From an uncultured Pelagibacteraceae bacterium (GTDB taxonomy: Bacteria; Pseudomonadota; Alphaproteobacteria; Pelagibacterales; Pelagibacteraceae): a stretch of 64,000 bases of DNA. The position numbers were made by a program, and so were the translations under genes. Positions within the stretch are counted from its first letter, which is position 1. Every line of letters starts with the position of its first letter. The stretch lies in NCBI GenBank assembly GCA_902617805.1, contig CACMYF010000001.1, positions 1 to 64,000 on the forward strand. The letters run 5' to 3'. Positions 33,530 to 37,722 of this stretch are shown here, piece after piece. The notes under the pieces were generated by a model. The model was given only the letters and a program-made list of their open reading frames with translations, was not told the origin of the DNA and ran no database searches.

Positions 33530-33604
33530 GGTCCCTTCGTCTATCGGTTAGGACACGTGGTTTTCATCCTCGAAAGAGGGGTTCGATTCCCCTAGGGACC
33601 GCCA
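33530..33604 (+). tRNA. tRNA-Glu (anticodon TTC), CCA encoded; one T-T mismatch in anticodon stem
   Basis: GGTCCCT/AGGGACC acceptor, loop TTTTCAT, T-arm AGGGG-TTCGATT-CCCCT; anticodon stem CGTGG/CCTCG. Confidence 0.94.
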
Positions 33605-33622
33605 TAATATATATTATTTTTT

Positions 33623-33886
33623 ATGGTTTATTACGTATATTTAATCAATACTTTAAAAGGATATCGTAGCAAATCATATGTTGGTTATACTAATAATTTA
33701 GATAATAGATTAATAAAACATAATTCAAATTTAGGTGCCAAATCAACTAGGGGTTATAAATGGGAACTTGTTTATAAAAAAAAATTCTATTCAAAATCAA
33801 AAGCACTTTCATTTGAATATAAGTTAAAAAACGATAGAAAAGAGAGATTAAGACTTATATATGATTTTAAAAAAAAAAAATCTTAA
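33623..33886 (+). CDS. GIY-YIG nuclease-superfamily protein (UPF0213/YhbQ-like)
   Basis: VYYVYLINTLKGYRSKSYVGYTNNLDNRLIKHN. Confidence 0.88.
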   Translation: MVYYVYLINTLKGYRSKSYVGYTNNLDNRLIKHNSNLGAKSTRGYKWELVYKKKFYSKSKALSFEYKLKNDRKERLRLIYDFKKKKS

Positions 33887-35981
33887 GATAGCCACTATAT
33901 TACCATACAAAGAGAACTATACATTTGATAAGGCATCAGCGGCATCACTGTGGGTTTCTGAGTTTTATAAAAAATCAAAATATAAAAAAACAAATATTAT
34001 TTATGGCCATACTAAGTCTAAAGATTATTTAACTAATAATTATAAAAATATAAATTTAAAAAATTTAAAATCAAAATTAAAAAGTACAACAAATGAATAT
34101 GCTGAAAAGTTAAATAGAGAACTAATATTTAATAATTTTGACCTTGTGGAAATTCATAATAGGCCACAGCTATTATTTAAATTAATAAATAAAGTTCAAT
34201 CTAAGTTTATTTTTTATTTTCATAATGATCCGATATCAATGAAAGGATCAAAAACAGTTCAAGAAAGACTCAAAATATTAGAAATAGTTGAAAAAATAAT
34301 ATTTGTTAGTGAATGGGTTAGAGATAGATTTTTTTTAGATATAGATAAAAAACTAAAAACCAAAACCGAAATTGTTTATCCAAGTGTAAATAAACAAAAA
34401 AAAATAAAGAAGAATAAAAATATAATATTTGTAGGTAGATTAAATTATTCTAAAGGTTATGATATTTTTAAAGAAGCTATAATAAAAATACTGAACGACT
34501 ATCCAGCATGGAATGCTTATTCATTAGGTGATGAAGATAGAAGAAATATTTATATTAATCATTCAAGACACGTAGAACTTGGATTTGTTAATCATAAAAA
34601 AACCTTAAATATTTTAAATCGATCAGAAATAGCTATTGTTCCATCAAGATGGGAAGAACCATTTGGAAGAACATCTTTAGAAGCAACATCCAGAGGATGT
34701 GCAACAATTATTAGTAATAGGGGGGGATTAAAAGAAACAACTGATAGCGCTATTATTTTAAAAAGTCTTAATTCTAACGAACTTTACTTAGAAATAAAAA
34801 AATTAATAACAGATAGAAAAAAAAGAAAAAAATTACAATCATTAGGTAGAAAGAACATTAAACATCTGATTAGTGAAAATACTAAGCTAATTGATCAAAT
34901 ACGAGAAAGTTGTGTTCCTTTTTTTAATGTAAACCTAATTAAAAAAAAATTAAAAATAATAAATTTATATAATCAAGGTCAGAAACTTAATCACAGATTA
35001 TACAATATTTCTTTAGGTAAAAAATTCACAAATGGTTTTGTAAGAAATGGTCATGATGTTTTAGAAATTAGTGATAGAGATTATCTAAGAAATAACAAGT
35101 CATTTAGTTTAATTCCTAATAGAAGTAATTTTCAAAAATTTTTAATTGATACTTTTAAAAATTACAATCCTGATGTTATTTTTTTTGGACATACAAAAAA
35201 TATTGAATTAGACACATTAAGTGAATTTAAATCATTAAATAAAAATCTTATTTTATCTCAATGGAATGAGGATCCAATAATGCCAAGTCTTAATTACTCA
35301 AAAAAAAATATTTCAAATATTCTGCAGTATTCTGAATTTGTAGATCATAATTTTATTACTACTGATCCATCAGTGCTTAATGATAAAATTGACAAAAAAA
35401 ATTTTAATTTTTTCTTTGTTCCTGTTGATAATAATATTGAAAGTTTCGATGTTTTTAAAATGAAACCTAAAAACGATTTATTTTACGCGATGAGTCATGG
35501 AGTTAATAGGGCAACTCTTAAGGAGGGTGTCGAAGATGAAAGAATTAATTTTTTAGATAATTTAGTCAAAAAAATTCCTAATATAAAATACGATTTTTAC
35601 GGTTTTTCAAATAAACAACCTATTTGGGGTAATGAATTCAACAACGCATTAATTAATTCAAAAATGGGTCTTAACTTAAGTAGGGGAAAACCAACCAAAT
35701 ACTATTCAAGTAATAGAATTGCCTCAATAATGGGAAATGGTTTACTTACCTTTATTGATGAAAAGGTTCAAATGAAAGACTTTTTTAATAAAAATGAAAT
35801 TATTTTTTATAATAATATAAATGATTTAGCTGATAAAATTAAATTTTATTCAAGTAAGGATAAAATTAGAATTAAAATTGCAAGAAATGGTAAGAAAAAA
35901 TATTTTAAGCTTTTTAATGAAACTAAAGTTTCTAAGTATTTTGTAGATATATCTCTAGGTAATAAAGCGACTTTACTCTAG
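33861..35981 (+). CDS. two-domain glycosyltransferase: GT4-type N-terminal half and CgeB-like C-terminal half
   Basis: N-half: GRLNYSKGYDIF, VPSRWEEPFGRTSLEATSRGCATI; C-half: NSKMGLNLSRGKPTKYYSSNRIASIMGNGLLTFID. Confidence 0.78.
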   Translation: MILKKKNLKIATILPYKENYTFDKASAASLWVSEFYKKSKYKKTNIIYGHTKSKDYLTNNYKNINLKNLKSKLKSTTNEYAEKLNRELIFNNFDLVEIHNRPQLLFKLINKVQSKFIFYFHNDPISMKGSKTVQERLKILEIVEKIIFVSEWVRDRFFLDIDKKLKTKTEIVYPSVNKQKKIKKNKNIIFVGRLNYSKGYDIFKEAIIKILNDYPAWNAYSLGDEDRRNIYINHSRHVELGFVNHKKTLNILNRSEIAIVPSRWEEPFGRTSLEATSRGCATIISNRGGLKETTDSAIILKSLNSNELYLEIKKLITDRKKRKKLQSLGRKNIKHLISENTKLIDQIRESCVPFFNVNLIKKKLKIINLYNQGQKLNHRLYNISLGKKFTNGFVRNGHDVLEISDRDYLRNNKSFSLIPNRSNFQKFLIDTFKNYNPDVIFFGHTKNIELDTLSEFKSLNKNLILSQWNEDPIMPSLNYSKKNISNILQYSEFVDHNFITTDPSVLNDKIDKKNFNFFFVPVDNNIESFDVFKMKPKNDLFYAMSHGVNRATLKEGVEDERINFLDNLVKKIPNIKYDFYGFSNKQPIWGNEFNNALINSKMGLNLSRGKPTKYYSSNRIASIMGNGLLTFIDEKVQMKDFFNKNEIIFYNNINDLADKIKFYSSKDKIRIKIARNGKKKYFKLFNETKVSKYFVDISLGNKATLL

Positions 35982-35984
35982 TTC

Positions 35985-36689
35985 ATGACAAAATTTTTTA
36001 AAAATTTATATCGTTTAATATTAATTGGATCACCGTTATTTATGATTGTAAATTACATAAGAAACTTTTTACCTAATTACAAAACTAAGAAAAAATCAAA
36101 AAAAATAGAACATTTCATTTATGATAAATTTGAAAGTGTAAATTATAATGAAAAATGGTTTTGTAATAATCTTAATTATTTGACAAATAATTTTAAAAAT
36201 ACAAAAAATATTAAAGACGTGCTTGAAATCGGTTCTTATGAAGGAAGAAGCGCAATTTTTTTTTTAAAAAATTTTAATTATTGCAATATAACTTGTGTTG
36301 ATACTTGGTCTGGAAGTGATGAACATAATATTGTTGATTTTAATTTAATAGAAAAGAATTTTGATTTAAATACTGAATTTTATCAATCAAATAATCATTT
36401 AACTAAGCATAAAATGACATCCAATGAATTTTTTAAACAAAATAATAAATATTTTGATTTAATTTATATTGATGGTGATCATTCCTCTGATCAGGTTAAA
36501 ATTGATTTAATTAATTCCTGGAATTCATTAAAAAATGGTGGTTTCTTAGTTTTAGATGATTATTTGTGGTGGTATTATAAAGATCTTAAAAAAAATCCCT
36601 CAACTTCAATAAATAATTTCATTAAGAAAAATATTTCTAATATCTCTAAATTAACTGTTTGGCATCAAGTTATTATTCAAAAAAATTAA
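35985..36689 (+). CDS. class I SAM-dependent methyltransferase with N-terminal hydrophobic segment
   Basis: VLEIGSYEGRSAIFFLKNF; DLIYIDGDHSSDQVKIDLI; GGFLVLDDY. Confidence 0.82.
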   Translation: MTKFFKNLYRLILIGSPLFMIVNYIRNFLPNYKTKKKSKKIEHFIYDKFESVNYNEKWFCNNLNYLTNNFKNTKNIKDVLEIGSYEGRSAIFFLKNFNYCNITCVDTWSGSDEHNIVDFNLIEKNFDLNTEFYQSNNHLTKHKMTSNEFFKQNNKYFDLIYIDGDHSSDQVKIDLINSWNSLKNGGFLVLDDYLWWYYKDLKKNPSTSINNFIKKNISNISKLTVWHQVIIQKN

Positions 36690-37643
36690 TTATAATTCTA
36701 CTTTATTCAATGCATTATTTTTAAATATATTTGCTTCTTTAATGTATCTTCTTACCATTTGAGTTGTTTTATGACCTGTCATAGCCATTATGCTTCTTTC
36801 ATCTGCTCCAGATTCAGCAGCTACTGTTGCAAAACCTGACCTTAAACTATGACCAGCAAAATTTTTATTTTCGATTCCAGCTAAGTTCAAATAATCTTTT
36901 ATTAATAAAACCACAGATTGATCAGTTAATCTTTTATTTCTTAATGATAGACCTCTAGAAAAGCCTCTAAAAATAGGTCCAGACTTAATTTTGGAAATTT
37001 TTAACCATTTTTTTAAATTTGTGACTGGACAGTAAATTTCATTATTGAAGTAGGGTATTCCTTTAGTCATTCCTTCACCAAATTGGTCAGTCTTTGATCT
37101 TTTAATGTTAATTTTAAGCCCTTCAGGAACAAATTCTAAATCCTCATTATCAATTGAAATGAGCTCAGTTCTTCTAAAGCCACCTCCAAAGCCAATTAAT
37201 ATTAATGATTTGTCTCTTAATCTTCTAATTTCTTCAGTTCTTTGTTCATTTATTGTATCAATAATTAATTTTAAATGATTGATTAATAATGGTTTTTTAC
37301 CTTTCTGAATACTTCCTTTGACTCTTCTTATTCCCATTAGATTTTCAACTATGATTGGATGTTTGGTATCAAGATAATATCCTTTCAGTTTGTGTACCAT
37401 GCTTATAGAAACCAATCTTCTTCTTAAAGTACTTATTTTTGAGTTTTTAGATAAATAGGTTAGGTATAAGGAAACTGTTTTTGGTTCAGTTGGTAATGAA
37501 TTTAATCCATGCTTAGCACAAAAAGCACCAAAGTCTTTAAAATCAGACTTATAAGCTCTTAAAGTATTATTTGCCTTAGAGTTTTTGAGGTTATTTAATG
37601 TTGCCTCATGTAGAGATTTTAGATCTGTAGTTAACTCACTCAT
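36690..37643 (-). CDS. tyrosine recombinase / phage-type integrase, complete catalytic set
   Basis: GGGFRRTELISI (Arg), HSLRSGFA (HxxR), GHKTTQMVRRY (His...Tyr); SAM-like N-terminal domain. Confidence 0.93.
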   Translation of the reverse strand: MSELTTDLKSLHEATLNNLKNSKANNTLRAYKSDFKDFGAFCAKHGLNSLPTEPKTVSLYLTYLSKNSKISTLRRRLVSISMVHKLKGYYLDTKHPIIVENLMGIRRVKGSIQKGKKPLLINHLKLIIDTINEQRTEEIRRLRDKSLILIGFGGGFRRTELISIDNEDLEFVPEGLKINIKRSKTDQFGEGMTKGIPYFNNEIYCPVTNLKKWLKISKIKSGPIFRGFSRGLSLRNKRLTDQSVVLLIKDYLNLAGIENKNFAGHSLRSGFATVAAESGADERSIMAMTGHKTTQMVRRYIKEANIFKNNALNKVEL

Positions 37644-37646
37644 ATG

Positions 37647-37681
37647 ATTACTATCGATAACAATTAATTATCGTTAGTAAT
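37647..37681. repeat. 35-bp inverted repeat, dif/lox-like (14-bp arms, one mismatch, 7-bp spacer)
   Basis: ATTACTATCGATAA-CAATTAA-TTATCGTTAGTAAT. Confidence 0.9.
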
Positions 37682-37722
37682 ATATCAAGTGTTTTATAAT
37701 GTCAAATAAAATAATTTTATAA

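Follow-up and report, generated by a model that had tools for sequence, protein, structure and literature searches.

The single tyrosine recombinase gene in the window (the whole stretch of 64,000 nucleotides of Pelagibacteraceae DNA analysed here), together with the inverted repeat directly upstream of it, very probably constitutes the chromosome dimer resolution system of SAR11, the equivalent of dif/Xer in this group. Carnoy and Roten (2009) found no dif/Xer system in Pelagibacter ubique and no evidence for Cre/lox-like systems in dif/Xer-deficient proteobacteria (PMC2731167). No later report for SAR11 was present in the open-access journal literature searched. SAR11 bacteria, the most abundant in the ocean, had been reported to lack such machinery, and the gene and the repeat are now concrete candidates for its recombinase and site.

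The recombinase is matched by the Pfam Phage_integrase model at 5e-19 and also has a SAM-like N-terminal domain. Alignment to XerD assigned the catalytic residues R157, H265, R268, H291 and Y300, which are invariant in 26 relatives. The catalytic set R, H-x-x-R, H/W, Y is complete and the catalytic domain intact, with the beta-hairpin lysine not pinned down, and by this residue criterion the enzyme should be catalytically competent. An AlphaFold model built from 26 close relatives reached a pLDDT of 47 and was too poor to use. On the side of the site an MGMT gene adjoins the recombinase in 79/80 relatives, so that synteny is conserved here, whereas the other flank (33861-36689) is variable and encodes a 234-aa methyltransferase in 3/80 relatives and a 706-aa glycosyltransferase in 50/80. 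An 87-aa ORF that follows a tRNA-Glu gene (33530-33886) was judged by eye to be GIY-YIG nuclease-like.

ORF reading of the window gave an ATG at 37643 on the minus strand as start codon of the recombinase. The preliminary description had named this start and a repeat at 37647-37681, with arms matching at 13/14 positions around a 7-bp spacer, and its coordinates proved exact (Table 1). The site reads ATTACTATCGATAA-CAATTAA-TTATCGTTAGTAAT. No other inverted repeat in the window has arms matched at 13/14 positions or better and a spacer of 6-8 bp, while Markov shuffles of the window contained 0-2 such repeats (mean ~0.35). With up to three mismatches the 35-mer occurs once in the window, against 0.00 expected. 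The palindrome by itself is only mildly unusual for AT-rich DNA, and the case therefore had to rest on comparison.

Table 1. Positions of the recombinase gene, its upstream site and the predicted promoter in the window, and of corresponding arms in phage contigs
Feature	Position	Strand	Basis
Single tyrosine recombinase, 317 aa, Cre/plasmid-resolvase type	36690..37643	-	ORF, Pfam, XerD alignment, tree
Candidate dif/lox-like recombination site, 14-7-14 bp, 3 nt 5' of recombinase ATG	37647..37681	.	Sequence, shuffles, conservation
ATG-proximal arm ATTACTATCGATAA	37647..37660	.	Sequence; conservation
7-bp spacer CAATTAA, presumed strand-exchange region	37661..37667	.	Sequence; comparison
ATG-distal arm TTATCGTTAGTAAT, overlapping predicted -10	37668..37681	.	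Sequence; conservation
Predicted -10 TATTAC, within distal arm	37677..37682	-	Inferred from spacing
Predicted -35 TTGACA, 17 nt upstream of -10; ~99% conserved in relatives	37700..37705	-	
SAR11-dif-type arms in phages	L198:4147-4181; L208, L219, L209, L220; L246:35375-35441 (HTVC106P); 70 contigs among L277-L356		

The site is found at the same place in all 80 nearest loci of public genomes, all of which belong to Pelagibacteraceae, and none of these recombinase-bearing relatives has lost the arms. Its mean column identity across the 80 loci is 98.6%, whereas the 30 nt upstream reach 80% and third codon positions 81%. This is conservation beyond coding constraint, and the recombinase coding sequence contains no 35-nt stretch that attains the same value. 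Across Pelagibacteraceae the arms fall into two classes, ATTACTAAYGATAA and TTTCCGATAA, which pair in nearly all cases with recombinases of 317-318 aa and 304-308 aa, respectively, and track the recombinase clades in the tree. In each class the change affects both arms and the inner GATAA/TTATC remains constant. Such paired changes are the trace that would be expected of a dimeric DNA-binding protein co-evolving with two half-sites. The spacer is nearly invariant in SAR11 but variable in plasmids and phages.

The transcription start of the recombinase gene is predicted to fall inside the palindrome, near 37668-37671. As the predicted -10 lies in the distal arm, binding of the recombinase should repress its own gene, and autoregulation is likely in addition to recombination since site and predicted core promoter overlap. 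The preliminary description had considered an autoregulatory operator and a hairpin masking the start codon as alternatives to a recombination site. The former is compatible with our data, and in its strict form it would make the palindrome solely an operator, for the recombinase or for another dimeric regulator, with recombination occurring elsewhere or never. The overlap with the predicted -10 and start, and the conserved TTGACA at 17 nt from the -10, fit such an operator. However, autoregulation and recombination can coexist, and with the copy number, position and occurrence of the site described below we consider a purely regulatory palindrome unlikely. The hairpin did not hold up. As RNA the whole palindrome folds well (-12.4 kcal/mol, z -4.2), but with the predicted start inside it only one half would be transcribed, and this half folds no better than chance (z 0.06). 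A hairpin would also leave unexplained the conserved spacer and the phage and plasmid sites that are located away from start codons. It is therefore extremely improbable that the repeat acts as an mRNA structure.

For a system of dimer resolution, copy number and position of the site are informative. The core was searched for in 12 genomes under relaxed conditions, with one mismatch allowed, and with zero mismatches GATAANTNATNGTTATC occurred exactly once in every one of them, always beside the recombinase gene. The core GATAATTAATKGTTATC was present in 272/397 genomes of the order and in two copies in none; it was absent from all 53 genomes of the sister family, and a reversed control pattern gave zero matches among the 397 genomes. 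The lack of a second core copy in any genome searched argues against a role as operator only. In the seven complete chromosomes for which it was calculated, the distance from dnaA to the site is 0.42-0.49 chromosome lengths. The GC-skew maximum, computed on stretches of four chromosomes (1.16-1.46 Mb, three genera), lies 2.8, 1.5, 2.4 and 1.1 kb from the site in G018, G024, G028 and G005, respectively. The chance product of these four distances is ~6e-11 if positions are independent and random, and an operator would not need such a position. Of the E. coli-type KOPS (GGGNAGGG) in the four regions, 26 are directed at the site and two face the other way; two of the genomes show only a weak bias, and GC skew partly explains the polarity. 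Separately, the octamer TTATGGAA was seen to be oriented toward the site at 158:48 within 200 kb on either side in the same four genomes, most strongly in G018 (52:7) and G024 (43:7), and it is possibly a chromosome-architecture motif. Other skewed 7- and 8-mers near the terminus were rejected as signals, as they were mostly A-rich strand-composition effects.

The recombinase appears to stand alone in most of the family. A tyrosine recombinase (PF00589) was encoded in 57/63 good-quality Pelagibacteraceae genomes, mostly exactly one and only weakly Xer-like. The protein in the window scores 74 and 60 bits against the XerD and XerC equivalog models (cut-offs 330 and 335, respectively) and 35 bits against the XerS equivalog (NF003462, cut-off 267). 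The sister family of the same order has exactly two PF00589 proteins in 14/15 genomes searched, and the two that were examined match XerD (326 bits) and XerC (315 bits). XerC and XerD were absent from most Pelagibacteraceae genomes, the classical pair being found in the sister family only, and no canonical dif with XerCD was found at another locus. The genome from which the window derives is 78% complete, so we take the absence of XerCD there from its relatives. As the sister family has XerC and XerD and most Pelagibacteraceae do not, these sequence data are most simply explained by a loss of XerCD in Pelagibacteraceae. The PF00589 match was absent in 6/63 Pelagibacteraceae genomes of at least 90% completeness, which implies that the system is not universal, or has diverged, in some lineages. 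Four genomes without a tyrosine recombinase match (G009, which is 99% complete, G014, G020 and G032; genera g5 and g9) are all at least 94% complete, and in these the system may have been lost or may have diverged.

The FtsK gamma domain is kept in 11/11 complete genomes. Together with a lone recombinase, a single-copy linked site and a position at the terminus, this is the composition of a single-recombinase dimer-resolution module. Canonical dif has the conserved XerD half-site TTATGTTAAAT and a 6-bp spacer. The SAR11 locus differs from canonical XerCD/dif, as it has no XerC/XerD pair, TTATCGTTAGTAAT as right arm and 7 bp between the arms. The proposal that the locus is a self-contained recombinase-plus-site module is thus supported by conservation, single copy, terminus position and absence of XerC/XerD, and also by the sites on plasmids.

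The nearest named relatives of the recombinase are plasmid recombinases, with full-length matches at 35-44% identity. P1 Cre is only distantly similar (phmmer E ~1e-5 to Cre chains in PDB). In the tree, a branch with 99% support separates the SAR11 enzymes, the plasmid recombinases and Cre from XerCD, with Cre on a long branch the exact place of which is unsure. The plasmid recombinases form a widespread family, and 3462 plasmid records contain a relative at some distance. At 16/20 plasmid loci (L365-L374 and L435-L444) an inverted repeat of the type YCGATAA-N6/7-TTATCG, from which some sites depart at one or two positions, was detected upstream of the recombinase gene and outscored every shuffle. 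Examples are TGATGTCCGATAA-GTGATTG-TTATCGGACATCA in Alicyclobacillus, TAACGTTCGATAA-TGTGTTC-TTATCGAACGTTA in Protochlamydia and TGACTTCCGATAA-TATATAG-TTATCGGAAGTTA in Niallia. In other Alphaproteobacteria, 9/16 recombinase loci have a site scoring at least 19. Homologous sites beside both plasmid and alphaproteobacterial relatives indicate that this type of site belongs to the recombinase family. The likeness of ATAA..TTAT to E. coli dif, which had been pointed out in the preliminary description, is not homology: the site is one of the YCGATAA-N6/7-TTATCG sites of lox type, and the recombinase is placed with Cre and the plasmid enzymes, apart from XerC/XerD. In both sequence kinship and homologous site type, the SAR11 module agrees with the Cre/lox-type plasmid resolution family. 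The plasmid sites are located 50-1240 bp from the recombinase gene and often far from its promoter, which is another argument against a palindrome that is an operator and nothing else. Neighbours of the plasmid recombinases are often toxin-antitoxin or ParA genes and also include ParB genes. Multimer resolution is likely the ancestral role of the recombinase family. A plasmid multimer-resolution system was apparently the source of the SAR11 module, or else the two have a common ancestor, and in Pelagibacteraceae the module seems to have taken the place of XerCD.

Viral contigs likewise contain the core, and many of them belong to relatives of HTVC106P, a phage that was isolated on HTCC7211 and has a LexA-like repressor but no annotated integrase. 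Host-type arms were found in 40/70 HTVC106P-like contigs, above all shuffled and coding controls, and are located between the small terminase gene and a 61-aa ORF upstream of the large terminase gene (Table 1). Often an A-type site stands next to a B-type site in these phages, and the spacers are variable. As they occur without a recombinase gene, they too are difficult to reconcile with an operator alone. It is possible that HTVC106P-like phages rely on the recombinase of the host to integrate or to resolve their own genomes. HTVC010P has no site, and a search for phages integrated at the site recovered HTVC106P-type terL relatives in 8/397 genomes (at most 47% identity), with the site in 0/8 of these loci. 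A phage-encoded origin of the recombinase was rejected, as the viral collections searched contained no close homologue.

The relatives on plasmids and the phages with matching arms could also mean that the recombinase and its site are the integrase and att site of a resident mobile element and have no housekeeping role. This seems very unlikely, since the pair is inherited vertically across the family, is present in single copy with conserved synteny (MGMT in 79/80) and lies at the terminus. Moreover, neither a second att copy nor element boundaries were found, and no close phage-encoded homologue was seen in the viral collections searched.

In chromosome dimer resolution, the reading that we prefer, the binding and cleavage of the site, the resolution of dimers, the dependence on FtsK, the autoregulation and the direction of transfer are inferred, and the system would operate as follows. 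A dimer formed from sister chromosomes by homologous recombination would have its two terminus sites aligned by FtsK at the septum. Each site would be occupied by two recombinase monomers, bound to its inverted arms, and an exchange of strands within the 7-bp spacer would convert the dimer back to monomers. Bound recombinase should in addition repress its own gene and keep its level low, as both the predicted -10 and the start region are covered by the site. A wider reading, in which the site doubles as operator of the recombinase and abundant integrase-less HTVC106P-type pelagiphages with both arm classes exploit the host recombinase, has as a whole about an even chance of being correct. The module hints at a possible way for such phages to enter the host chromosome or make use of it.

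Single-recombinase systems are known from streptococci and lactococci (XerS/difSL) and from epsilonproteobacteria (XerH/difH), and as in SAR11 they combine one recombinase with an adjacent site at the terminus and have FtsK available. They differ in that the SAR11 enzyme falls with the plasmid/Cre-type recombinases, that its arms are of the YCGATAA type and that the site is located inside its own predicted promoter. An experimentally proven system is XerL/dif of Legionellales, a single recombinase in a group that had been reported to lack dif/Xer (PMC9765430), which implies that overlooked single-recombinase systems are real. XerL/dif shares with the SAR11 module the nearly perfect inverted arms, a site near the GC-skew maximum and mimicry by a mobile element, with a link to plasmids in Coxiella. 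In contrast, more than 400 kb separate its gene from its site, and the SAR11 case is known from sequence alone. XerCD/dif resembles the SAR11 module in terminus location, in a palindrome with short spacer and in FtsK-gamma, while SAR11 has one recombinase, no XerC/XerD and no dif-type XerD half-site.

In its parts the module is closer to Cre/loxP, VCre/VloxP, Dre/rox, Vika/vox and Nigri/nox, which likewise consist of one recombinase and a site of ~34 bp with inverted arms of 13-14 bp and a short spacer, and further resemble it in having the site near the gene and in plasmid dimer resolution. The SAR11 system differs from these in being chromosomal, at the terminus and conserved across a bacterial family, and its spacer is 7 bp where that of loxP is 8. 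The closest named relatives, with the same type of site, are the 'site-specific integrases' on plasmids of Alicyclobacillus, Paenibacillus, Methylobacterium, Protochlamydia and others, which, unlike the SAR11 module, are plasmid-borne and variable in arms and spacers. They are apparently without functional study in the literature searched, and as plasmid recombinases with readable target sites they could yield new tools for site-specific recombination. In E. coli, Cre/loxP can replace XerCD/dif only with loxP at the terminus and in an FtsK-dependent manner (PMC2731167, PMC2680272). The SAR11 module, which in function is probably like XerS/difSL and in its parts is like Cre/lox, would be the natural counterpart of this laboratory swap of dif for loxP.
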